64,000 bases of DNA, from positions 310,001-374,000 of the forward strand of contig NZ_CP090640.1 of NCBI RefSeq assembly GCF_029633825.1, given 5' to 3'. This DNA is from Burkholderia contaminans. GTDB taxonomy: Bacteria > Pseudomonadota > Gammaproteobacteria > Burkholderiales > Burkholderiaceae. The position numbers were made by a program, and so were the translations under genes. Below, piece after piece: positions 14,031 through 60,768 of this stretch (position 1 is its first letter; every line of letters begins with the position of its first letter). The notes under the pieces were generated by a model that saw nothing but the letters and a program-made list of their open reading frames with translations, was not told the DNA's origin and made no database searches.

Positions 14031-15077
14031 CTACGCAGCCCGCACGTTGCCCGTATGCGGCGCCTGCGCGGTCAGCTCGGCCCACAGCGCATCGCCGCGC
14101 CAGGCCGGACGCGCCGCCGCACGTTCCGCGTCATGCACGAGCGCGCAGAGTCGCGCATTGACGGGCGCCTGCCCGCCGAAGTGGGCGGCCAGCCGCACGA
14201 CCTCGCCGTTGATCCACTCGACTTCCGTCGCCCGCCCCGACGCAAGATCGTCGGACATCGACGAACGCGCGAGCGGATCGATCGCGAGCATCCGGCCGCC
14301 AAGCACGCGAAACGCCGGATCGGGCAAGTCGAGCACGGCCGGGAGCCACCCGGCCGGCAACGGCGTCAGCCGCGCGGGCCGGATCGCGGCCCGCGCCAGC
14401 CAGTGCAGCGCTTCGCGCTGCGCAAGCGCGACGCAGCGCCGGTACGCACGTTGCGCGAGTTCGTCGCGCAGCGGCAGGTTCGCGAGCGCGTTGACCGCGT
14501 TGTTCAGGTTGAGCAGCAGCTTCGCCCATTGCACGGCCCGCATGTCGCGATGCAGCGCGAGCGGCAGCCCGGCACGCGCGAATGCGCCGGCGAACGGCGT
14601 CAGCGCGGGGGAGGCTTCGGCCGCCAGCGCACCGGCCGAGCCCTGGTGAAACGCACCGGGCTCGCGCTCGATCACGTTGAACGGCACCATGCCGGCCAGC
14701 ACGGTGGCTTGCGGCAGCGCTTCGCGCAGCACGTCGGCGTTATGCAGGCCGTTCTGGAAGCTGATCACGACCGTGCCATGCCGCAGCACGCCGGCAAGCT
14801 GCGCCGCGGCCTCACGCGTCGCGGCCGATTTGACCGCCACGAGCACGAGCCGCGCGGTCGCCGCAGCCGCCGGATCGGTCTCGAACACGACATCGGCCGG
14901 CGCGAGGGTCGCGCGATAGCCGCGCTGGTCGGTCAGCGTCAGCCCGTGCCGAAGAATCGCGTCGCCGATCCGTGCACGGCCGACGAGCGTCACATCCGCG
15001 CCAGCCGCCGCCAGACGTCCGCCGAGATAGCAGCCGACGGCACCCGCGCCGAACACACAGGCCGGTGCGTCAGACAT
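14031..15077 (-). CDS. panE: 2-dehydropantoate 2-reductase (ketopantoate reductase)
   Basis: A 348-residue NADPH-dependent reductase; the family reaction is ketopantoate to pantoate in pantothenate synthesis. The dinucleotide fold starts with CVFGAGAVGCYLGG (about 7-20). The catalytic Lys and Asn lie in AVQWAKLLLNLNNAVNAL, and the later Glu in SSMSDDLASGRATEVEWING. Its start overlaps the end of the Mpo1-like gene by 8 bp, so the two are likely cotranscribed. A second member of this family lies at 55701-56645 in a catabolic operon, so this copy is the better candidate for the biosynthetic enzyme. Confidence 0.85.
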   Translation of the reverse strand: MSDAPACVFGAGAVGCYLGGRLAAAGADVTLVGRARIGDAILRHGLTLTDQRGYRATLAPADVVFETDPAAAATARLVLVAVKSAATREAAAQLAGVLRHGTVVISFQNGLHNADVLREALPQATVLAGMVPFNVIEREPGAFHQGSAGALAAEASPALTPFAGAFARAGLPLALHRDMRAVQWAKLLLNLNNAVNALANLPLRDELAQRAYRRCVALAQREALHWLARAAIRPARLTPLPAGWLPAVLDLPDPAFRVLGGRMLAIDPLARSSMSDDLASGRATEVEWINGEVVRLAAHFGGQAPVNARLCALVHDAERAAARPAWRGDALWAELTAQAPHTGNVRAA

Positions 15078-49840: not shown

Positions 49841-49948
49841 ATGCGCACCCCTTCCTCCTCGACCGCCTTGTCGCCTTTCGTCCGCCGTGCCCGCCCTGCC
49901 CGCGTCGCGCCGCGCCCGCCCGTCTCGTTCCGGATGGCCGCGCGATGA
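49841..49948 (+). CDS. Possible 35-codon leader ORF overlapping the flavin reductase start
   Basis: ATG 49841 opens 35 codons (Ser/Pro/Arg-rich) and ends in a TGA that overlaps the flavin reductase ATG as ATGA. TAAAAT at 49829-49834 ends exactly six bases before the ATG, so the mRNA would be leaderless. The rest of the 304-bp gap 49641-49840 holds nothing I recognise. The composition is not protein-like, so this may be chance. Confidence 0.3.
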   Translation: MRTPSSSTALSPFVRRARPARVAPRPPVSFRMAAR

Positions 49949-50454
49949 GCCACGCCAATCCTCCGGATTTCGACTCGGCCGCCTTCCGGCAAGCACTCGG
50001 CCAGTTCGCCACGGGCGTGACGGTGATCACGACGCGCGCACCGTCCGGCCAGCTGATCGGCATCACCGCCAGCTCGTTCAACTCCGTGTCGCTCGATCCG
50101 CCGCTCGTGCTGTGGAGCCTCGCGCACAAATCGGCGTCGACGCCCGTGTTCCGCGGCAACAGCCATTACGTGGTGAACGTGCTCGCGGCATCGCAGCTCG
50201 ACCTGTGCAAGCGCTTCTCGACCTACAAGGGCGATCGCTTCGAAGGAATCGCGCATGCGGCCGGCAACTCTGGGATGCCCGTGCTCGACGGCGCGCTCGC
50301 GTGGTTCGAATGCCACAACCGCAGCCGCTACGACGAAGGCGACCACGTGATCTTCGTCGGTGAAGTGGAGCGCTGCGGCGTGCGCGCGGAATCCGACACG
50401 GCACCGCCGCTCGTGTTCCACGGCGGCGGCTTCCACGGCCTTACACCGCTTTGA
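49945..50454 (+). CDS. Flavin reductase family protein (NTAB/HpaC-like)
   Basis: A 169-residue FMN-binding split-barrel protein. FRQALGQFATGVTVITTRAPSGQLIGITASSFNSVSLDPPLVLW is the family opening (given here in pieces: QFATGVTVITT, GITASSFNSVSLDPPLVL), followed by YVVNVLAASQ and GDHVIFVGEVE. Members supply reduced flavin to two-component monooxygenases. No monooxygenase is adjacent. It overlaps the kynR 3' end by 14 bases tail to tail. Confidence 0.9.
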   Translation: MSHANPPDFDSAAFRQALGQFATGVTVITTRAPSGQLIGITASSFNSVSLDPPLVLWSLAHKSASTPVFRGNSHYVVNVLAASQLDLCKRFSTYKGDRFEGIAHAAGNSGMPVLDGALAWFECHNRSRYDEGDHVIFVGEVERCGVRAESDTAPPLVFHGGGFHGLTPL

Positions 50455-50941
50455 TCGCCCCCGTGCGCGCCAGCCCGACCGGCGCGCCGGCTTCATCCTT
50501 CAGCGTCTGCAGCACGATGTTCGAACGGATGTCCATCACGCCCGGCGCCTTGTAGAGCCGGTTCAGCACGAAATCCGAATAGTGCTTGAGGTTGTGCGCG
50601 AGCACGCGCAGCAGATAGTGGCTTTCGCCCGTCACGACGAACGCGCCGACCACCTCCGGCCATTCGCGCAGCGCTTCCGCGAAGCGCTCGTGCCATTGAT
50701 TCTCTTCGTTGCGCATCGACACCTGAACGAACGCCTCGAGCTCGAAGCCGAGCTTCTCGCGGCTCAGGCACGCGCGATAGTGCTCGATCACGCCCTGCTC
50801 CTCGAGCAGGCGCATGCGGCGCAGACAGGCGGATGGCGAAAGCGAAATCCGTTCCGCCAGGTCGAGATTGCTGATTCTGCCCTCTTCCTGCAGTACCGCC
50901 AGAATCCGGCAGTCGGTGGCATCGAGCGTGATCGCGTGCAT
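50441..50941 (-). CDS. kynR: Lrp/AsnC family regulator, likely KynR
   Basis: A 166-residue regulator. Residues 1-65 form the AsnC helix-turn-helix ([47 protein letters not shown] in pieces), and residues 70-150 the RAM ligand-binding domain (VQVSMRN..., [15 protein letters not shown]). It is divergent from kynBUA; in Pseudomonas the Lrp-type KynR in this position activates the operon in response to kynurenine. The name rests on this context. Confidence 0.88.
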
Positions 50942-50970
50942 TTTTGGTCCCCGTTTTCCCTCTGAGTCGA

Positions 50971-50998
50971 ATTATCTGCCAATCGGGCGGATTGTCCA
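50971..50998 (-). promoter_or_regulatory. Candidate kynR promoter
   Basis: On the minus strand TGGACA (50998-50993), 16 bp, GATAAT (50976-50971), about 30 bases before the kynR ATG. The 130-bp gap must also hold the kynB promoter and KynR sites; I could not place these with confidence. Confidence 0.4.
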
Positions 50999-51071
50999 TG
51001 TTTATTTCGCAAGCACTTTCTACGAGCGTCCACCTATCATTCGAAGGACCGACTCACCGAATCGTCATGCC

Positions 51072-51713
51072 ATGGACACCCTCTGGGACATCTCGCCGCC
51101 TGTCAGCCCCGCCACCCCCGTATGGCCGGGCGATACGCCGGTTTCCGTCGAACGCGTGTGGCGGATGGAGGCCGGCTCGCCGGTCAACGTCGCGCGCCTG
51201 ACGCTGTCGCCGCACACGGGCGCGCACTGCGACGCGCCGCTGCACTACGACGCCGACGGCGCGCCGATCGGCGCCGTGCCCCTCGACACCTACCTCGGCC
51301 CGTGCCGCGTAATCCATTGCATCGGCGCATCGCCGGTCGTGCAGCCGGCCGACGTCGCGGCCGCGCTCGACGGCGTACCGCCTCGCGTGCTGCTGCGCAC
51401 CTGTGCGCGCGCCAGCGTCGACGAGTGGGACAGCCACTTCTGCGCGGTCGCGCCGGAGACCGTCGACCTGCTCGCCGCGCACGGCGTGAAACTGATCGGC
51501 ATCGACACGCCGTCGCTCGACCCGCAGGAATCGAAGACGATGGATTCGCATCGCCGCGTGCGCGCGCACCGGATGGCAATCCTCGAAGGCATCGTGCTCG
51601 ACGATGTGCCGCCCGGCGACTACGAACTGATCGCACTGCCGCTGAAATTCGCGACGCTCGACGCGAGCCCCGTGCGCGCGGTGCTGCGCGCGCTGCCCGC
51701 GCGCGCCGCCTGA
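51072..51713 (+). CDS. kynB: Kynurenine formamidase (arylformamidase)
   Basis: A 213-residue metal-dependent hydrolase that converts N-formylkynurenine to kynurenine plus formate. It is a cyclase-family protein: [18 protein letters not shown] and the metal motif [19 protein letters not shown], with [21 protein letters not shown] and [22 protein letters not shown] later. Length equals that of known bacterial KynB. First gene of kynB-kynU-kynA; kynU starts 25 bases downstream. Confidence 0.96.
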
Positions 51714-51738
51714 TTACCCCGACCTACGACCTCACATC

Positions 51739-52995
51739 ATGATGATCAAGACCCGTGAAGACGCGCTCGCGCTCGACCGCGACGATGCGCTCGCCCCGCT
51801 GCGCGACCAGTTCTCCCTGCCCGACGGCGTGATCTACCTCGACGGCAACTCGCTCGGCGCGCAGCCGCGCGCATCGGCCGCCCGCGCGCTGCAGGTGATC
51901 GACGCCGAATGGGGCGAAGGCCTGATCCGCAGCTGGAACACGGCCGGCTGGTTCGCGCTGCCGCGCCGTCTCGGCGACAAGCTCGCGACACTGATCGGCG
52001 GCGCGCCCGGCGAGACGGTCGTGACCGATACGATCTCGATCAACCTGTTCAAGCTGCTGTCGGCGATGGTGCGCCACCAGGCCGAGCGCGCGCCCGAACG
52101 CCGCGTGATCGTGTCGGAGCGCTCGAACTTCCCGACCGACCTGTATATCGCGCAGGGGCTGATCGAGCAGCTCGGCGGCGACTACGAACTGCGCCTGATC
52201 GACGACCCGGCCGACCTGCCCGGCGCGCTCGGCGCGGACACGGCCGTCGCAATGATCACGCACGTGAACTACCGCACCGGCTACATGCACGACATGCCGG
52301 CCGTCACGCAACTCGTGCACGACGCCGGCGGGCTGATGCTGTGGGATCTCGCGCACTCGGCCGGCGCGGTGCCGGTCGACCTGAACGGCGCACGCGCGGA
52401 CGGCGCGGTCGGCTGCACGTACAAGTACCTGAACGGCGGCCCCGGTTCGCCCGCCTTCGTGTGGGTGCCGCATCGTCATCACGCGCACTTCTCGCAGCCG
52501 CTGTCCGGCTGGTGGGGCCACCGCGCACCGTTCGCGATGCAGCCGGGCTTCGCGCCCGATCCGGGCATCGCACGCTTCCTGTGCGGCACGCAGCCGATCG
52601 TGTCGATGTCGATGGTCGAATGCGGGCTCGACGTGTTCCTGCAGACCGACATGCACGCGATCCGCCGCAAGTCGCTCGCGCTGACCGATGCGTTCATCGC
52701 GCTCGTCGAAGCACGCTGCGCGGGCCTGTCGCTGAAGCTCGTCACGCCGCGCGCGCATCACCAGCGCGGCTCGCAGGCGAGCTTCGAGCATCCGCACGGC
52801 TACGAAGTGATGCAGGCGCTGATCGCGCGCGGCGTGATCGGCGACTACCGCGAGCCGTACGTGCTGCGCTTCGGTTTCACGCCGCTCTATACGCGCTTCG
52901 CCGACGTGTGGGATGCCGTCGAGACGCTGCGCGACATCCTCGCCACCGACGCGTGGAAGGCGCCCGAGTTCGCCGAGCGCGGCGCGGTGACCTGA
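51739..52995 (+). CDS. kynU: Kynureninase
   Basis: A 418-residue PLP enzyme that splits kynurenine into anthranilate and alanine. FLDGNSLG-like [44 protein letters not shown] and the PLP-lysine motif [16 protein letters not shown] are all present; [18 protein letters not shown] and [17 protein letters not shown] close it. Tandem ATGs at 51739 and 51742; either may be used. Anthranilate from this pathway can feed quinolone signals or catabolism elsewhere. Confidence 0.97.
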
Positions 52996-53058
52996 TCGGC
53001 CTTGCCCGGCGCGCGTGAGCCGCGCGCCGCGCCCCGTCATTCAAATCTGGAGAGAGTC

Positions 53059-54006
53059 GTGAATTCTGGTCATATGCAGCCACCCGGCGGCGACGCGCCG
53101 GCGGGCTGCCCGTTCTCGGGCGCACGCGCCGCGCATTCGGCACAAGCGGCCCCGGCCGCGCACGAAGCATCGCACGTGCCCGGCGATGCCGGCTGGCACA
53201 ACGCGCAGCTCGATTTCTCGAAATCGATGAGCTACGGCGACTACCTGTCGCTGAATTCGATCCTCGACGCGCAGCATCCGCTGTCGCCCGATCACAACGA
53301 GATGCTGTTCATCATCCAGCATCAGACGAGCGAGCTGTGGATGAAGCTCGCGCTGTTCGAGCTGCGCGGCGCCCTCGACGCGGTGCGCACCGACGCGCTG
53401 CCGCCCGCGTTCAAGATGCTCGCACGCGTGTCGCGCATCCTCGAACAACTGGTGCAGGCGTGGAACGTGCTGTCGACGATGACGCCGTCCGAATATTCGG
53501 CGATGCGCCCGTATCTCGGGCAATCATCGGGTTTCCAGTCTTATCAGTACCGGCAACTCGAATTCCTGCTCGGCAACAAGAACGTGCAGATGCTGCAGCC
53601 GCATGCGCATCGGCCCGACATCCTCGAACAGGTGCGTGCGACGCTCGAGGCACCGTCGTTCTACGACGAAGTCGTGCGCCTGCTCGCGCGGCGCGGCTTC
53701 CCGATCGCGGCGGAGCGGCTCGAGCGCGACTGGACCCAGCCGACCCGGCACGACGAGACGGTCGAAGCCGCGTGGCTCGAGGTGTACCGTCACCCGCAGC
53801 AGCACTGGGAACTCTACGAGATGGCCGAGGAACTCGTCGATCTCGAGGATGCGTTCCGCCAGTGGCGCTTCCGTCACGTGACGACCGTCGAGCGCATCAT
53901 CGGCTTCAAGCAGGGCACGGGCGGCACGAGCGGTGCGCCGTACCTGCGCAAGATGCTCGACGTCGTGCTGTTCCCCGAGCTCTGGCACGTGCGCACCACG
54001 CTGTAA
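53059..54006 (+). CDS. kynA: Tryptophan 2,3-dioxygenase
   Basis: A 315-residue heme dioxygenase that opens the indole ring of tryptophan to N-formylkynurenine, the first step of the pathway. [38 protein letters not shown] (heme-pocket His), [17 protein letters not shown], and [29 protein letters not shown] (heme His and substrate loop) are intact. I start at GTG 53059 because GGAG lies six bases upstream; ATG 53074, five codons later, is the alternative used for similar proteins. Residues 1-45 are a variable Ala/Pro-rich leader. Confidence 0.95.
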
Positions 54007-54036: not shown

Positions 54037-55434
54037 TCACGACGACGTGCGGGCCAGCTCCTCCCCTTCGCGCGGCTGCACGGCCGCGCGCGACAGTCGC
54101 GGGATATGCCGTCGCACGACGAGCAGCGCGACGCAGACAATCCCCATCGCGATCGCCAGCATCGTCAGATAGGCCGTGGCGCCGCCCGTGGTGATCACGA
54201 TCGCGCCCGCGAACGCACTGAGGATCGCGCCGAGCCGGCCGAACGCGAGTGCGCTCGCGGTGCCCGTCGCGCGCACGGCCGTCGGGTAGATGTACGCACA
54301 GAGCGCGTACATCGTCGACTGCACCGCGTTGACGAACAGTCCGTGCAGGCCGAGCCCGACGATCAGCCAGCCCGTGTGGCGGCCCGCATCGACACCCATC
54401 AGCCACACCGCACTCGCCGCGCCGCCGATACTGCACAGCACGAGCGGCCAGCGCGACCCAGCGTGCGCGATCGTCCACGCGCACAACAGCGCACCGATCA
54501 CGCCGCCGAGGTTGTACGCGGTGAGCCCCGTCCCCGCGACCGACACGCTCAGCCCGCTCGCCGCCAGCATCGTCGGCAGCCAACTGAACGCCGCATACAC
54601 GGCAAGCAGGCACATGAAAAACGCGCACCACAACGCGATCGTGTCGCGCGCGTGGCCGCTCGCGAACAGCGCGCCGAAGCCGCCGCGGCCGCCTGCCGTG
54701 CGTGCGTCCCTCATGTCGGTGAAGGCGGTGCCCGGCGCGACGGACCGCTCCATCCGCGCGAGCAGCGCGCCGAGTTCCGGCCAGCGCGCGGGGCGCCGCG
54801 CGAGATAGCGCGGCGATTCGGGCAGCGCACGCACGAGCACGAAGCCGAGCACGAGCGGCAACGCGCCGCCCGCAAAGAACAGCCCGCGCCAGCCGTAGCG
54901 CGGCAGCACCTCGTGCGCGAACAGGCCGGCCAGCATCCCGCCGAGCGGCACGCAGACGATCGTCGCGGTCACCATCATCGTGCGACGCCGCGCAGGCGTG
55001 TATTCGGCCGTCATCGTCGTGGCCGTCGGCAGCGCGCCGCCAATCCCGAGGCCTGCTATGAAGCGCAGCACCGCGATCGCGGTGACGTCCGGTGCGAAAC
55101 CGATCGCGCAGGTCGCGATGCCGAACAGGAACACGCTGCCGATCACGGCCTGGCGGCGGCCGAAGCGGTCAGCGACGATCCCCGCGCACGCACTGCCGAT
55201 GCCCATCCCGATCAGCCCGGCCGCCACCGCCGGCGCGAACGCGCCACGCGTGATGCCCCATTCGCGGATCAGCACCGGAATCGCGAAGCCGATCAGCTGG
55301 CCGTCGAAGCCGTCGAGCACGATCGCGAGCGCGGCGAGCAGCACCACGCAGCGCTGCATCGTCGTGAACGGCCCGTCGTCGAGCGTCGCGCCGATGTCGA
55401 CGGACGGTGGCGGCAATCCGTCGCGCGTGCTCAT
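54037..55434 (-). CDS. Aromatic acid:H+ symporter (AAHS) family MFS permease
   Basis: A 465-residue inner-membrane symporter with 12 helices. LDGFDGQLIGFAIPVLIREWG is the AAHS helix 1 motif (DGFD as in PcaK/BenK), followed by GIVADRFGRRQAVIG (motif A) and RFIAGLGIGGALPTATTMTAEYTPARRR. It probably imports an aromatic acid such as benzoylformate, mandelate or benzoate, given the genes upstream. The start at 55434 follows GGGAGG. A 27-codon leader ORF overlaps this start (ATGA). It is 266 bp downstream of the reductase gene, so it may have its own promoter. Confidence 0.9.
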   Translation of the reverse strand: MSTRDGLPPPSVDIGATLDDGPFTTMQRCVVLLAALAIVLDGFDGQLIGFAIPVLIREWGITRGAFAPAVAAGLIGMGIGSACAGIVADRFGRRQAVIGSVFLFGIATCAIGFAPDVTAIAVLRFIAGLGIGGALPTATTMTAEYTPARRRTMMVTATIVCVPLGGMLAGLFAHEVLPRYGWRGLFFAGGALPLVLGFVLVRALPESPRYLARRPARWPELGALLARMERSVAPGTAFTDMRDARTAGGRGGFGALFASGHARDTIALWCAFFMCLLAVYAAFSWLPTMLAASGLSVSVAGTGLTAYNLGGVIGALLCAWTIAHAGSRWPLVLCSIGGAASAVWLMGVDAGRHTGWLIVGLGLHGLFVNAVQSTMYALCAYIYPTAVRATGTASALAFGRLGAILSAFAGAIVITTGGATAYLTMLAIAMGIVCVALLVVRRHIPRLSRAAVQPREGEELARTSS

Positions 55435-55514
55435 GCGACCTCCCGTGTACCGCGCTTACGCGGCAACATGCGCGAGCGGCGCGCGGCAAGACAACGGCAT
55501 TCGATGGCGTTCAT
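55431..55514 (-). CDS. Putative 27-residue Cys-containing leader peptide
   Basis: ATG at 55514 is preceded by TGGAGACGCC, a strong Shine-Dalgarno identical to that of normal genes here. It encodes MNAIECRCLAARRSRM and then an Arg/Lys-rich end, 27 residues. The stop TGA overlaps the ATG of the AAHS permease (ATGA). Arg-rich, Cys-containing short ORFs placed like this act as translational leaders elsewhere. No product homology is known to me. The rest of the 266-bp gap 55515-55700 shows nothing else. Confidence 0.5.
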   Translation of the reverse strand: MNAIECRCLAARRSRMLPRKRGTREVA

Positions 55515-55700
55515 GGCGTCTCCATTTGCCCGGGCTGGCGCGGTAGCGCGTGCCCGGATCTCGTGCTGCGCAGGCGGCTGGTGTCGACGCATCGGCGCCG
55601 GCTCCGGTGTCTCGTCCAACCCGTTGCGATCGGGCGCCGTCGCCTGCGCGCGACGCGCTCGTCTCGTCGTGCGGCGCAAGCCGCGCCGCCAGCCTGATGC

Positions 55701-56645
55701 TCAGTTCATCCGTGCGTCGATCAGCCGGACCAGCGCAAGCAGCGTCTCGGCGTGCGGTACCGCGACACCCGCTTCGCGCGCGGCCGCGACGACCTTGCCG
55801 CTGATCGCTTCGATTTCCGTGCGGCGGCCCGCGAGCACGTCCTGCAACATCGACGGGCGATGGCCGCGATGCGCGCCGATCGCATGCTCGACGTTGTGCG
55901 CGATACGTTCGCCGTCGACCGCGATGCCCTTCGCGTGGGCGACGCCGGCCACCTCGGCCGCGATTGCGAGCGCGAGTCGCGGCCCGTCGTGATGATTGCC
56001 GAGCTGGTCGACCGTGCAGCCCGTCGCCGCGCACAGCGTGTTGAGCGCCGCATTGAATGCGACCTTCTCCCAGATCGCGGCCCATACGTCGGTGTCCAGC
56101 GTGCACGCGAGCCCCGCGCGCGACAGCGTTTCGGCCGCCGTCGCCGCGAACGGGCGCGCCGCGCCGTCGGCCGTCATCATGCGGATCGTGCCCGCGCCGT
56201 GCGAGCGCACGTGCGCCGGCCCCGCGGCGTCGGCCGGCCACGTCGTCACGCCGACCAGGATGCGTTCGAGCGGCACGAACGCATTCAGCGTCTCGACGTT
56301 GCCGAGCCCGTTCTGCAGCGTCAGCACGTGCGTGTCCTGCTCAAGCAGCGCGCGCACGCCGTCGAGTGCGGTACGCGTATGCAGCGATTTCGTGAAGACG
56401 ATCAGCAAGTCGAACGATGCATCGGACGATGCGGCCGCATCCGCATTCGCCACTTCCGGCCGCACGGCCTGCAACGTACGGATGCGTCGTTCACCACGAT
56501 CGTCGTCGATGCGCAGTCCGTCACGGCGAATCGCATCGAGGTGCGCGTCGTTCACGTCGATCAGCGTGACTGCCTCGCCGCTTTCGGCCAGCCGCCCGCC
56601 GAACAGCGAGCCCATCGCGCCGGCGCCCAGAATCGCAATCCTCAT
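55701..56645 (-). CDS. Ketopantoate-reductase-family dehydrogenase, candidate D-mandelate dehydrogenase
   Basis: A 314-residue NAD(P)-dependent protein of the PanE/KPR family. Rossmann opening MRIAILGAGAMGSLFGG, then TLIDVNDAHL, LIVFTKSLHT, LTLQNGLGN; catalytic Lys and Asn in WEKVAFNAALNTLCA, and SMLQDVLAGRRTEIEAISG. It lies 14 bases behind the aldehyde dehydrogenase gene in an operon with benzoylformate decarboxylase. KPR-family D-mandelate dehydrogenases are known from Enterococcus, and oxidation of D-mandelate would give exactly the substrate of the decarboxylase. A genuine pantoate role is less likely because another panE lies at 14031-15077. The enzyme assignment is inference from context. 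Confidence 0.85.
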   Translation of the reverse strand: MRIAILGAGAMGSLFGGRLAESGEAVTLIDVNDAHLDAIRRDGLRIDDDRGERRIRTLQAVRPEVANADAAASSDASFDLLIVFTKSLHTRTALDGVRALLEQDTHVLTLQNGLGNVETLNAFVPLERILVGVTTWPADAAGPAHVRSHGAGTIRMMTADGAARPFAATAAETLSRAGLACTLDTDVWAAIWEKVAFNAALNTLCAATGCTVDQLGNHHDGPRLALAIAAEVAGVAHAKGIAVDGERIAHNVEHAIGAHRGHRPSMLQDVLAGRRTEIEAISGKVVAAAREAGVAVPHAETLLALVRLIDARMN

Positions 56646-56659
56646 CGTCGTCGGCCTCG

Positions 56660-58111
56660 TCAGAACGGATAGTGGCGCGGTGCGGTCTGCACCGTGATCC
56701 AGCGCAGGTCCGTGAACGCCGCGATGCCTGCGTTGCCACCGAAGTGACCGAAGCCGCTGTCCTTCACGCCGCCGAACGGCATCTGCGCCTCGTCGTGCAC
56801 GGTCGGGCCGTTCACGTGGCAGATGCCCGATTCGATGCGGGCCGCGACGCGCATCGCACGCGCGACGTCGCGGCTGAACACGGCCGACGACAACCCGAAC
56901 GCGTTGTCGTTCGCGCAACGGATCGCGGCATCCTCGCCGTCGGCGCGCACGATACCCTTCACCGGGCCGAACGACTCCTCGGCATAGATGCGCATCGCCG
57001 GCGTCACGTGGTCGAGCAGCGTGGCCGGGAACAGCGTGCTGTCGGCCTTGCCGCCGCACACGAGCGTCGCGCCGTGCGCGAGCGCATCGTCGATCAGCGC
57101 GTTGCAGCGCTCGACGGCCTTCGTGTCGATCAGCGAACCGAGTACGACGGGCCCTTGGCGAGGATCGCCGAGCGGCAGCGACGCGGCCTTGTCGGCGAGC
57201 TTCGCGACGAACGCATCGGCGATCGATGCGTCGACGACGATGCGTTCGGTCGACATGCAGATCTGCCCGGAATTCGCGAACGCGCCGAACGCGGCCGCCG
57301 CCACTGCGGCGTCGAGGTCGGCGTCGTCGAGCACGACGAACGGCGCCTTGCCGCCGAGCTCCAGCACCGACGGTTTCAGGTGACGCGCGCAAGCTTCGGC
57401 GACGATCCTGCCGACACGCGTCGATCCCGTGAAATTCACGCGGCGCACGGCCGGATGCGCGATCAATGCATCGACGATCGTGCCTGCATCCTCTGGCGCG
57501 TTCGTCACGAAATTGACGACACCCGGCGGCAGCCCGGCTTCCTGCAACGCCTCGACGATCAGACCGTGCGTGACGGGACACAGCTCCGAGCCCTTCAGCA
57601 CGACCGTGTTGCCGCACGCAAGCGGCAGCGCGAGCGCGCGCGTCGCGAGGATCACCGGCGCATTCCACGGGGCGATGCCGAGCACGACGCCGGCCGGCTG
57701 CCGCACGCCCATCGCGAGCGAACCGGGCACGTCGGACGGGATCAGCTCGCCGCCGATTTGCGTGGTCAGCGACGCAGCCTCGACGAGCCCGCTCGCGGCG
57801 AGATGCACGTTGAAGCCGGCCCACAGCGCGGACGCGCCCGTCTCCGCCGCCATCGCGGCGACGAACTGCTCGTGCTTCGCTTCGAGCGCGGCGGCCGCCT
57901 TCAGCAGCAGCGCGCGGCGTGCACCGGGGCCGAGCGCGGCCCAACCGGGAAACGCTCGGGCGGCCGCATCGGCCGCCGCGCGCGCATCGTCGACGGTGCA
58001 TGCCGGCGCTTCTGACGCGACTTCGCCATCGAGCGGGTTGCGGCGCACGAAGGTCGCGCCGCTGGATGAATGGCGACGTTCGCCGCCGATCAGCATCGAT
58101 ACGGTTTGCAT
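56660..58111 (-). CDS. Aldehyde dehydrogenase, likely benzaldehyde dehydrogenase
   Basis: A 483-residue NAD(P)-dependent enzyme. The start at 58111 follows CCGGAGATTCC. Motifs: GIAPWNAPVILATRALALPLACGNTVVLKGSE, NFTGSTRVGRIVAE (cofactor), LELGGKAPFVVLDDAD (Glu) and FANSGQICMSTERI (catalytic Cys). The pattern is that of vanillin/benzaldehyde dehydrogenases. It lies between the benzoylformate decarboxylase gene (38 bp upstream) and the reductase-family gene, so benzaldehyde to benzoate is the probable reaction. Benzoate would then go to the benzoate pathway outside this window. Confidence 0.93.
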   Translation of the reverse strand: MQTVSMLIGGERRHSSSGATFVRRNPLDGEVASEAPACTVDDARAAADAAARAFPGWAALGPGARRALLLKAAAALEAKHEQFVAAMAAETGASALWAGFNVHLAASGLVEAASLTTQIGGELIPSDVPGSLAMGVRQPAGVVLGIAPWNAPVILATRALALPLACGNTVVLKGSELCPVTHGLIVEALQEAGLPPGVVNFVTNAPEDAGTIVDALIAHPAVRRVNFTGSTRVGRIVAEACARHLKPSVLELGGKAPFVVLDDADLDAAVAAAAFGAFANSGQICMSTERIVVDASIADAFVAKLADKAASLPLGDPRQGPVVLGSLIDTKAVERCNALIDDALAHGATLVCGGKADSTLFPATLLDHVTPAMRIYAEESFGPVKGIVRADGEDAAIRCANDNAFGLSSAVFSRDVARAMRVAARIESGICHVNGPTVHDEAQMPFGGVKDSGFGHFGGNAGIAAFTDLRWITVQTAPRHYPF

Positions 58112-58149
58112 GGAATCTCCGGAGGGACGCGCGTCGCGCATCACGTAAT

Positions 58150-59757
58150 TCAGGCAATCTCGACTTCGACGACGACCGGCGTCGCCGCACGCAGCGCGTC
58201 GGCCAGCGTGTCGCGCAGGTGCGTGGCCTCGCTCACGCGTATGCCGCGGCAGCCCATCCCTTGCGCGAGCGCGACGAAATCCAGGTCCGGCAGATCGGTG
58301 CCCTGCACGGGGTCGCCCGGCCCGAAGCCGAACACCGGCGCGAAATCCTGCAGCGCCGCGTAGCGGTGATTGTTCAGGATCACGAACGTGATCGGCAGCT
58401 TCAGTTGCGCGGCGCTCCACAAGGCCTGGATCGAATACAGGCTCGACCCGTCGCCGATCAGGCCGATCACGCGCCGGCCCGGCTGCGCGAGCGCGACGCC
58501 GACGGCGGCCGGCATCCCGTAGCCGAGCCCGCCGCTGTCCATCGTGTAGAACGTGCCGCTGCGCGTGAACGGCAGGTGTTCCTGCATCACGGGCCGTGCG
58601 CTCGGCGCTTCCTCGACGACGATGTCGTGCGCGTCGCGCACGTCGGCAAGCGTCTGCAGCGCGAACGCGACCGACATGCGCTCGCCGGCGGCCGGCGGTT
58701 CGACACGCGCACGCGGCGGCCGCGGCGCGGGCATCGGCCGCTCGGGCGGCGCCGGGCGCGCGAGCAGGTCGCGCGCGGCGAGCCGCAGGTTGCCGACGAC
58801 CGCATCGCCCGACGGCGTCCACGCGGCGATGCCCGGATCGTCGACGAGCTGCACGAGCGTCGCGCCCGGCGGCACGTGCGGGCCGAAGCCCTCGATGTGA
58901 TAGGTGAACGCGGGCGCGCCGAACGCGAACACGAGGTCGTGCCCGTCGAGCCGCGCGACGATCTTCTCGCGGATTGCGGGCAGGAAGCCGGCGAACAGCG
59001 GATGGTCCTCGGGGAAGCTGCAGCGCCCCGACATCGGCGCGACGTACACGCGCGCGCGGTGCCGCTCGGCGAGCCGCACGACGTCGTCCCACGCGCCGGC
59101 GCGATCGACGGCCGCCCCGACCACGAACGCGGGTCGCCGCGCGGCGTCGAGCGTGTCGCCGAGCCGCGCGAGCGCGTCCGGATCGGGCCGCACGACGCTG
59201 CTGACGTCGCGGCGCGGCAGCCGGTCGGCCGGCTTGTCCCAGTCGTCGACCGGGATCGACACGAACACGGGGCCGCGCGGTTCCTGCATCGCGATGCGGT
59301 ACGCACGCGCGATCGCGGCCGGCACGTCCTGCGCACGCGCAGGCTCGATGCTCCATTTCACGTACGGCTTCGGCAGCTCGGCAGCCTGCGTCGCGCCGAG
59401 AAACGGGTCGAACGGCAGGATCGCGCGTGCCTGCTGGCCCGCGGTCACGACCAGCGGCGTGCGATTCTTGAAGGCGGTGAAGAGATTGCCCATCGCGTTG
59501 CCGACGCCCGCCGCCGAATGCAGGTTGACGACCGCCGCATTGCCGGTGGCCTGCGCGTGGCCGTCGGCCATCCCGACCACGACGGCTTCATGCAAGCCGA
59601 GCACGTAGCGGAAATCGTCCGGGAAGTCGCGGAACATCGGCAGCTCGGTCGAGCCGGGATTGCCGAACACGCGGTCGATGCCGAACTGGCGAAGCAGGTC
59701 GATCACCGCATCGCGAACGGTGACCGGTACGGCGGAAGGGGGCGTATGGCCGGACAT
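58150..59757 (-). CDS. mdlC: Benzoylformate decarboxylase
   Basis: A 535-residue thiamine diphosphate enzyme that converts benzoylformate to benzaldehyde and CO2. GNPGSTELPMF with Ser36, LHEAVVVGMADG with Glu57, and NLHSAAGVGNAMGNL with His80 correspond to Ser26, Glu47 and His70 of the Pseudomonas putida enzyme at a constant offset of ten. FTYHIEGFGP (His287) matches the second active-site His. The ThDP motif GDGSSLYSIQALWSAAQLKLPITFVILNN is in pieces intact (GDG...NN). First gene of the operon; divergent from the LysR gene. Confidence 0.93.
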   Translation of the reverse strand: MSGHTPPSAVPVTVRDAVIDLLRQFGIDRVFGNPGSTELPMFRDFPDDFRYVLGLHEAVVVGMADGHAQATGNAAVVNLHSAAGVGNAMGNLFTAFKNRTPLVVTAGQQARAILPFDPFLGATQAAELPKPYVKWSIEPARAQDVPAAIARAYRIAMQEPRGPVFVSIPVDDWDKPADRLPRRDVSSVVRPDPDALARLGDTLDAARRPAFVVGAAVDRAGAWDDVVRLAERHRARVYVAPMSGRCSFPEDHPLFAGFLPAIREKIVARLDGHDLVFAFGAPAFTYHIEGFGPHVPPGATLVQLVDDPGIAAWTPSGDAVVGNLRLAARDLLARPAPPERPMPAPRPPRARVEPPAAGERMSVAFALQTLADVRDAHDIVVEEAPSARPVMQEHLPFTRSGTFYTMDSGGLGYGMPAAVGVALAQPGRRVIGLIGDGSSLYSIQALWSAAQLKLPITFVILNNHRYAALQDFAPVFGFGPGDPVQGTDLPDLDFVALAQGMGCRGIRVSEATHLRDTLADALRAATPVVVEVEIA

Positions 59758-59856: not shown

Positions 59857-60768
59857 ATGACTTTCGATCTTCGACAATTGCGTGCCTTCACGACGATCGT
59901 CTCGTGCGGCAGCCTCGGCCGCGCCGCCGACGCGCTGCACGTCACGCAGCCGGCGCTGAGCCGGATCCTGAAACGGCTCGAGGACCAGGTCGGCGCGCCC
60001 TTGTTCGAGCGCCACTCGAAGGGCGTGCAGCTCACCGCGTTCGGCGAGGCGCTGCTGCCGCACGCGACGCTGCTGCAGCACGAGGCCGAGCACGCGCGCG
60101 AGGAGCTCGACGCGATGCGCGGCTTCGCGAAAGGCACGATCAAGGTCGGCACGGTGGGCAGCATCGCGAGCCTCGTGCTGCCGGTCGCGGTGGGCCGTGT
60201 GCTCGACCGCTGGCCGAACCTGCGCGTCGAGATCATCGAAGGCGTGTGGGACCGGCTCGCGGAAGGGCTGAACAAGCACGAGATCGATCTCGCGCTGTCC
60301 GCGCACGGGCCCGACACCGACGAGATCGTCGCGATTCCCGAGTGCCGCTGGGAGGATCGCAGCCACATCGTTGCGGCGCCGCACCATCCGCTGCGCGCGC
60401 TCGGCCGCGCGCCGACGCTTGCCGACACGCTGCACGCGCGCTGGGCGATTCCGCCGCGCGGCACCGCACCGTTCGACCACATGCGCGCGACCTTCGACGC
60501 ACACGGGCTCGCGCTGCCCGACATCGCGGTCGAGACGCGCTCGGTGACGACGCTGAAAAGCCTCGTCGCGCATGCCGGCTTCCTGAGCTGGATGGCCGAG
60601 CCGATGTACGGTGCCGAGCAGCGCGCCGGCACGATCGACACACTGCCCGTGCGCGAGGTCGTCGCAGTGCGCACGCTCACCGCGTTCCGGCGCCGCCACG
60701 GCATCCTGCCGGGGCCGGCCGGCAAGCTGCTCGAAGAACTCGTCGCATTGACGCGCGAAGGACGCTGA
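59857..60768 (+). CDS. LysR family transcriptional regulator
   Basis: A 303-residue regulator. The N-terminal helix-turn-helix is FDLRQLRAFTTIVSCGSLGRAADALHVTQPALSRILKRLEDQVGAPLF (in pieces LRQLRAF, GRAADALHVTQPALSRILKR); residues about 90-300 are the periplasmic-binding-like effector domain (GTIKVGTVGSIASLVLP...). It is divergent from the proposed mandelate operon and is its likely activator, with benzoylformate, mandelate or benzaldehyde as possible effectors. It has no other neighbour on its strand. Confidence 0.9.
   Translation: MTFDLRQLRAFTTIVSCGSLGRAADALHVTQPALSRILKRLEDQVGAPLFERHSKGVQLTAFGEALLPHATLLQHEAEHAREELDAMRGFAKGTIKVGTVGSIASLVLPVAVGRVLDRWPNLRVEIIEGVWDRLAEGLNKHEIDLALSAHGPDTDEIVAIPECRWEDRSHIVAAPHHPLRALGRAPTLADTLHARWAIPPRGTAPFDHMRATFDAHGLALPDIAVETRSVTTLKSLVAHAGFLSWMAEPMYGAEQRAGTIDTLPVREVVAVRTLTAFRRRHGILPGPAGKLLEELVALTREGR

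Follow-up and report, generated by a model that had tools for sequence, protein, structure and literature searches.

A ketopantoate reductase family protein as the proposed (R)-mandelate dehydrogenase of a racemase-free catabolic cassette in Burkholderia contaminans

What does a protein of the ketopantoate reductase (KPR) family do between an aldehyde dehydrogenase (ALDH) and an aromatic-acid permease? The question is raised by a five-gene cassette in a 64,000-nucleotide stretch of the Burkholderia contaminans genome (the window, i.e. the whole stretch analysed; contig C1, genome size 9.44 Mb), which also encodes a benzoylformate decarboxylase (BFD) and a LysR-type regulator. The mandelate pathway of Pseudomonas putida comprises the racemase MdlA, the (S)-mandelate dehydrogenase MdlB, MdlC and MdlD. 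Two marks of such a classical mdl operon, a mandelate racemase and a flavin-dependent (S)-mandelate dehydrogenase, are absent from the window cassette. We propose that the five genes likely serve the racemase-free catabolism of (R)-mandelate (D-mandelate) or of mandelates hydroxylated on the ring.

In the proposed route, the permease, a symporter of the major facilitator superfamily (MFS), would take up the acid, and the KPR enzyme would oxidise (R)-mandelate with NAD+ to benzoylformate, which BFD would decarboxylate to benzaldehyde and ALDH would oxidise further to benzoate. The LysR protein would switch the operon on, probably answering benzoylformate. As the KPR enzyme would do for the R form what the flavin (S)-mandelate dehydrogenase does for the S form, no racemase would be required. 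The initial annotation of the locus had already assigned the oxidation of D-mandelate to the KPR protein, as supplier of BFD and ALDH. This assignment still accounts best for the context of the gene, its phylogeny, the cofactor residue and the solved structures nearest to the protein; the substrate, stereochemistry (enantiomer), cofactor, direction and inducer of the cassette are what we infer.

Organization of the cassette

The minus-strand genes are arranged in the order BFD, ALDH, KPR and MFS, at intergenic distances of 38, 14 and 266 bp, respectively, whereas the LysR gene is divergently oriented on the plus strand, separated from BFD by 99 bp. Re-reading of the coordinates and gaps showed that the initial annotation had described correctly the tight packing of the first three genes, the aromatic-acid permease next to them and the divergent regulator. 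The features are as follows.

58150..59757, minus strand: BFD (mdlC-like), first gene, 535 aa; from NF005485, the match to BFD in the PDB and catalytic residues
56660..58111, minus strand: ALDH near salicylaldehyde and vanillin dehydrogenases, 483 aa; from PF00171 and solved relatives
55701..56645, minus strand: KPR-family protein, proposed NAD-dependent (R)-mandelate (D-mandelate) dehydrogenase, 314 aa; from PF02558 and PF08546, solved relatives, tree, D30 and BFD linkage
54037..55434, minus strand: MFS permease of aromatic acid:H+ symporter type, 465 aa; from the TIGR00895 and PcaK models, both under cut-off
59857..60768, plus strand: LysR regulator, 303 aa; from PF00126 and PF03466
59792..59826, no strand: inverted repeat ACAGTATC-N19-GATACTGT between LysR and BFD, candidate LysR operator
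14031..15077, minus strand: PanE-like protein outside the cassette, for comparison only; from its NF006083 match

The KPR-family protein

The KPR protein scores over the cut-off on both ApbA domains (PF02558, 140.6 bits; PF08546, 120.5 bits). It possesses residues K194, N198, N202, S265 and E277, which we take to be the KPR-family catalytic Lys/Asn/Asn/Ser/Glu set, and all five are invariant in 41 of 41 alignment rows. Strand β2 is followed by D30, a position that holds Asp or Glu in all 41 rows but is shared more widely and is thus not specific; an acidic residue here presumably points to NAD rather than NADP. The closest solved relatives include the KPR-type D-mandelate dehydrogenases of lactic acid bacteria, with an identity of 29-35%. 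In a midpoint-rooted tree the KPR group joins these enzymes at 96/91, as a separate branch with long lengths. The nearest named proteins are from Burkholderia (B. cenocepacia cluster, 91% identity).

An improbable alternative is that the protein genuinely reduces ketopantoate, or 2-keto acids in general, and lies in the operon by chance. Its score exceeds the cut-off of the apbA_panE subfamily model TIGR00745 (250.6 vs 141.35 bits), the KPR catalytic residues are present, and an archaeal ketopantoate reductase is close in structure. However, the protein stays under the cut-offs of the other 17 of the 18 NCBIfam models listed, so that it has no equivalog-level match to PanE. PanE shares the Pfam domains and catalytic residues with KPR; they differ in gene context, in the cofactor residue (the window PanE-like protein has Gly-Arg at about the position of D30) and in overall similarity, with only 74 bits between KPR and Escherichia coli PanE.

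The window PanE-like protein has a score of 556.4 bits on NF006083, 2-dehydropantoate 2-reductase (cut-off 371). It had been argued in the initial annotation that this separate panE leaves KPR free for catabolism. The other panE-like gene does exist, but the argument is weak: five proteins of the genome, including these two, have an ApbA domain above 70 bits, and a biosynthetic role is assigned to none.

Decarboxylase, aldehyde dehydrogenase and permease

The assignment of BFD, made from its sequence, is firm. It scores 873.7 bits on the NCBIfam benzoylformate decarboxylase model NF005485 (cut-off 493) and 457 bits against benzoylformate decarboxylase in the PDB, and it retains S36, E57, H80 and H287, which presumably correspond to the catalytic residues S26, E47, H70 and H281 of P. 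putida BFD. ALDH matches PF00171 at 485.8 bits, with Cys285/Glu251 as the presumed catalytic pair, and is below the cut-off on all 25 NCBIfam models shown. Because its nearest solved relatives are a salicylaldehyde dehydrogenase (6qhn, 647 bits) and a vanillin dehydrogenase (9ihb, 618 bits), the substrate is likely an aromatic aldehyde. The best model for the MFS permease is that of the aromatic acid/H+ symporters, TIGR00895 (302.5 bits, under the cut-off of 418.55), and it scores 264 bits on the 4-hydroxybenzoate PcaK model, also under cut-off; a search for a close solved relative found none. By this family resemblance the permease likely takes up the acid. A route onward from benzoate is likely present in the same genome, whose best benzoate dioxygenase match has 726.3 bits (under the cut-off of 780.95).

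Hydroxylated acids are the main alternative as substrate. With the D-2-hydroxyacid dehydrogenase chemistry unchanged, mandelate might be only a side substrate, and KPR might naturally act on (R)-4-hydroxymandelate or on vanillylmandelate-like acids, derived from lignin or plant cyanogenic glycosides, a possibility that we hold less likely. Both the relatives of ALDH and the score of the permease on the PcaK model are in its favor, whereas the window cassette is devoid of 4-hydroxybenzoate 3-monooxygenase (PobA).

A paralogous cassette in the same genome

A second cassette is located on contig C2 (locus L052), in which a LysR gene is divergent from BFD2, ALDH2, MFS2, PobA, an FMN enzyme, an AraC-type regulator, a nitrilase and another MFS. 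Compared to the window cassette, the identities are 74% for BFD, 78% for ALDH, 71% for MFS and 67% for LysR. The FMN_dh profile gave one strong match in the genome (444 bits; the next of eight has 60), which lies ~5 kb from the BFD paralogue; no FMN_dh match was found near the window cassette. Among solved structures, the C2 FMN protein is most similar to the (S)-mandelate dehydrogenase 6bfg (471 bits); the remaining solved enzymes of this activity rank next, ahead of lactate and glycolate oxidases. PobA has 611 bits on NF006091, over the cut-off, and is just under that of TIGR02360, while the nitrilase matches PF00795 (186 bits) and solved NitA (389 bits). The flavin, nitrilase and AraC-type proteins are under every NCBIfam cut-off.

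Judged by these similarities, the cassettes are paralogues whose difference lies in the predicted source of benzoylformate, and the C2 flavin enzyme presumably serves the other enantiomer. With a homologue of flavin (S)-mandelate dehydrogenase thus present in the genome, KPR is probably its complement, acting on the R form. The earlier statement that no racemase or flavin enzyme is needed therefore applies to the window cassette and the D form, but not more widely: the genome has a flavin cassette on another contig, and nine of the 59 BFD-drawn clusters described below hold both enzymes.

A racemase that would make KPR redundant was set aside after inspection of eight candidates. The genome has nine MR_MLE_C matches, the nearest ~125 kb from the window cassette and none within 400 kb of the C2 cassette. 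No mandelate racemase was recognised among the eight of these nine proteins inspected, not each of which is firmly named. They comprise a galactonate dehydratase over the cut-off and a similar protein under it, a rhamnonate-dehydratase-like protein (under cut-off), two muconate cycloisomerases over the cut-off and two glucarate dehydratase matches (one under). The eighth is most similar to a solved MR/MLE-like protein of unnamed function (733 bits), with 570 bits for L-fuconate dehydratase and 59 bits for mandelate racemase.

Conservation within the Burkholderiaceae

A search with KPR (E <= 1e-60) gave a match in 47 of 65 genomes of the genus. Of the 30 genus loci returned, one of them from the own genome, 29 have an ALDH match directly next to KPR and 29 have an MFS match after it, and this recurrence indicates that the gene packing is not due to chance. 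In the ALDH exception (L017), BFD sits next to KPR, and the longer locus of the same genome (L053) has only a 43-aa ALDH match. BFD and KPR are ~1.5 kb apart in 36 of the 38 genus genomes that have both. The exceptions are G037 and G051; in G037, KPR is beside an 87-aa ALDH match and the BFD of the genome sits in a flavin-type cassette. Apparent natural decay is also visible among these kin: the short ALDH match of L053 lies beside a full-length KPR, L064 has its ALDH match in two pieces, and L060 has KPR with an 87-aa ALDH match.

At the family level, a BFD search (E <= 1e-130) of 349 genomes gave 120 with a match. From the matches 60 places were chosen by hand, and the 59 whose BFD identity is 55% or more were kept (L155, 46%, was dropped). 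Not among the chosen places are copies of the window type and a further 25 that rank lower or are partial; 20 of these 25 come from one genus (g282), whose five fetched members have neither enzyme. Loci L052-L065, some of which were picked for holding KPR, were tallied apart, outside the 59. A homemade gene caller was used on the loci as a guide only. A BFD search across 369 genomes of the class gave two matches (own and one other), too sparse to use.

The 59 clusters fall into 24 with KPR without a flavin enzyme, nine with both, seven with the flavin enzyme alone and 19 with neither; the 33 with KPR are not a frequency estimate, and L128 and L138 are counted as having both though their flavin gene is on the opposite strand. 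KPR is placed between ALDH and MFS, after MFS (L152, L153) or across LysR (L136), and its recurrence in these three arrangements indicates that its association with BFD survives rearrangement. Genome G003 (L061) has the order LysR-BFD-ALDH-KPR-MFS-AraC-nitrilase-MFS, i.e. the C2 neighbours with KPR and no flavin or PobA match; in this locus the AraC match is at 36%, and the genes for the nitrilase and the final MFS have the opposite orientation. Because the flavin family acts on S forms, whereas D (R) hydroxyacids are the products or substrates of the KPR family, co-occurrence of the two enzymes in a cluster is consistent with opposite stereospecificities.

The 19 loci with neither enzyme are L099, L100, L103, L105, L107, L118, L121, L137, L141-L149, L151 and L156. 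A whole-genome search (E <= 1e-60) found KPR in none of the 18 genomes searched from this group, whereas the same query finds kin in 47 of the 65 genus genomes and in Pseudomonas brenneri. This contrast argues that the KPR gene moves together with mandelate-type clusters and has no housekeeping role. In 11 of the 18 genomes, a flavin homologue (46-61% identity) that could be, but need not be, a mandelate enzyme is present elsewhere. Inspection by eye of the first 110 residues of neighbouring open reading frames (ORFs) in 14 of the loci revealed no consistent third dehydrogenase type. These BFD-ALDH clusters may use benzoylformate itself or another source.

Such a distribution weighs against a ketopantoate reductase in the cassette. 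A passenger PanE is disfavoured because KPR is missing from all 18 of the searched genomes that have no KPR in their BFD cluster, and because its linkage to BFD recurs in three arrangements and, as detailed below, three proteobacterial classes; the alternation and co-occurrence of KPR with the flavin (S)-mandelate dehydrogenase homologue point in the same direction.

Occurrence in other proteobacteria

A scan of named genomes gave 80 KPR loci, some of which are the same records as the family-genome loci, so that the counts overlap. Within 7.5 kb of KPR, a BFD with 40% identity or more is encoded in 17 of 19 loci at a KPR identity of at least 55%, in 15 of 30 at 41-54% (six more have only a distant thiamine diphosphate (TPP) enzyme) and in two of 31 below 41%. 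This drop with falling KPR identity serves as a rough negative control. The linked cases include Variovorax, Hydrogenophaga, Herbaspirillum, P. brenneri (L185, with the order BFD-MFS-KPR-ALDH), Halomonas, Marinobacterium, Bosea and several sphingomonads, and thus span the Beta-, Gamma- and Alphaproteobacteria.

Eight annotated plasmid regions were opened; in four of them KPR is accompanied by a BFD with 53% identity or more, and the other four have only a TPP enzyme of 24-31%. The Bosea vestrisii plasmid has ALDH, mdlC, two further genes, KPR and a TRAP transporter; in that of Novosphingobium sp. EMRT-2, mdlC is divergent from LysR and followed by KPR and MFS; in that of Neorhizobium petrolearium, KPR is beside ALDH, a TPP enzyme and an alpha-hydroxy-acid oxidising protein. 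In six loci (L203, L205, L210, L213, L219 and L162), the TPP enzyme next to KPR and ALDH shares no more than ~23-28% identity with BFD, and some of these loci also have a flavin enzyme or PobA; they may encode a different 2-oxoacid decarboxylase for a related substrate.

PobA and nitrilase genes bear again on ring-hydroxylated acids. PobA is present in the C2 cassette and in KPR clusters L116, L128, L136, L152 and L179, and nitrilase-family genes in L061 and in KPR loci L196, L197 and L198 (Pseudomonas bharatica CSV86), as hydroxylated substrates of plant origin would have it; however, a PobA match longer than 100 aa is seen in only four (L116, L128, L136, L152) of the 33 KPR clusters. A related observation comes from a 234-kb conjugative plasmid of Burkholderia anthina SO82 from the sorghum rhizosphere (L255, 797-12927), which has a flavin-type cassette of mdlC, ALDH, MFS, PobA, an alpha-hydroxy-acid oxidising protein, a helix-turn-helix regulator, a carbon-nitrogen hydrolase and MFS, then iaaH, with an IS6 element beside it. 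Because sorghum makes dhurrin, an (S)-4-hydroxymandelonitrile glucoside, this gene set would fit dhurrin use.

The gene neighbours also inform on the direction of the KPR reaction. The enzyme could work as a reductase, so that D-mandelate is stored or excreted, or excess benzoylformate and NADH are drained; for such dehydrogenases 2-keto acid reduction is reportedly more favourable than oxidation (PMC12350541; for this and all other papers cited by number, statements refer to the available parts of their texts). We nevertheless judge this very improbable, considering that the symporter is of uptake type by family, that BFD and ALDH downstream would pull benzoylformate away, that a homologue of flavin (S)-mandelate dehydrogenase is encoded in part of these clusters, and that some KPR loci include a nitrilase.

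For the wider distribution, there is about an even chance that a KPR-based, NAD-linked, racemase-free (R)-mandelate branch is a common proteobacterial route, in which clusters are built from an R-specific KPR and/or an S-specific flavin enzyme before a shared BFD-ALDH module, and in which nitrilase-bearing forms link to (R)- and (S)-mandelonitrile-type plant cyanogens. Prunasin and dhurrin are such cyanogens.

Regulation

The inverted repeat between LysR and BFD is the only such site in the window at spacings of 10-24. Among 11 other genus loci of the window cassette type, it is exact in eight, altered in two (L058, L059) and absent in one (L061). Cassettes of the second type have a common TAATGACTTT block, which resembles the stretch beside the inverted repeat. 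From its position and conservation, the repeat is a candidate LysR operator. The inducer of the window LysR is probably benzoylformate by analogy, since two known regulators both answer phenylglyoxylate: PhgR of Cupriavidus necator responds to this compound, which is converted there to benzoate via benzaldehyde (PMC7057948), and the LysR protein MdlR of Paraburkholderia hospita responds to S-mandelate and phenylglyoxylate, not R-mandelate (PMC10204090).

Neighbouring genes

Within the 266-bp gap between KPR and MFS (55435-55700), a short ORF overlaps with the beginning of the MFS gene and may act as a leader or in coupling; in L255, a small hypothetical protein is annotated directly ahead of MFS. 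A kynurenine-type cluster (window 49945-54006) lies directly beside the cassette, with flavin reductase, AsnC/Lrp-type regulator, and KynB-, KynU- and KynA-like genes, the names being read from sequence. A KynA match stays a neighbour in 10 of 12 longer genus loci with KPR, the exceptions being L060 and L061.

Comparison with known systems

KPR-type D-mandelate dehydrogenases of lactic acid bacteria were reportedly described by Wada et al. in 2008, and the family is known mainly as biocatalysts. Compared to the lactic enzymes of E. faecium (3wfi/5x20) and L. brevis (8wl1), the window KPR shares the family, fold, catalytic residues and acidic NAD-type residue; besides the modest identity and separate tree branch, the proteobacterial genes differ in lying in BFD/ALDH operons. 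The occurrence of KPR-family D-mandelate dehydrogenases in lactic acid bacteria is also recorded in PMC12350541.

The P. putida mdl pathway (genes named in PMC7760541) and the window cassette share the BFD and aldehyde dehydrogenase steps from benzoylformate to benzoate. They differ in that the former has a racemase and a flavin dehydrogenase, whereas the latter has a KPR-family dehydrogenase instead, the flavin type being in the C2 cassette. Both the PhgR system of C. necator (PMC7057948) and bzfRABCD of Pseudomonas LLC-1 (PMC7760541) likewise lead from benzoylformate (phenylglyoxylate) to benzoate via benzaldehyde. The LLC-1 cluster, LysR-BFD-MFS-ALDH-porin, resembles the window cassette in its first four gene types; however, the available text reports no mandelate-oxidising gene, and no mdlA or mdlB according to its authors, and LLC-1 grows on benzoylformate, not on (R,S)-mandelate (PMC7760541). 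Such a phenotype is as expected of a cluster without the KPR step, if LLC-1 is without KPR.

In P. hospita, the MdlR/PmdlC (S)-mandelate sensor also has a LysR gene divergent from a mandelate cluster, and the C2 cassette looks, by analogy, to be of this type. It differs from the window cassette in the enantiomer answered, and in the available text its authors found no R-mandelate candidate (PMC10204090). This 2023 paper describes R-mandelate use via mandelate racemase, and states that no R-mandelate sensor was minable because R-mandelate appears in KEGG solely as a product of the racemase. In Burkholderia terrae BS001, three predicted mandelate genes that are contiguous are expressed on soil extract (PMC5209427). 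No published report of a KPR-type D-mandelate dehydrogenase in a proteobacterial mandelate operon was found in the literature searched, which excluded most subscription journals and included papers available in part.

Altogether, the racemase-free NAD-linked (R)-mandelate branch is read as a new version of a known pathway, with an enzyme type known elsewhere. Similar clusters are found in other soil bacteria, and the textbook racemase route is probably not the only one for (R)-mandelate. If the KPR genes do encode (R)-mandelate dehydrogenases, many genes labelled 2-dehydropantoate 2-reductase or ketopantoate reductase family protein would be misnamed, and candidate R-mandelate operons and regulators would become visible. 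Stereo-complementary enzymes for mandelic acid work would be easy to find, and a physiological role would be suggested for the enzyme family.

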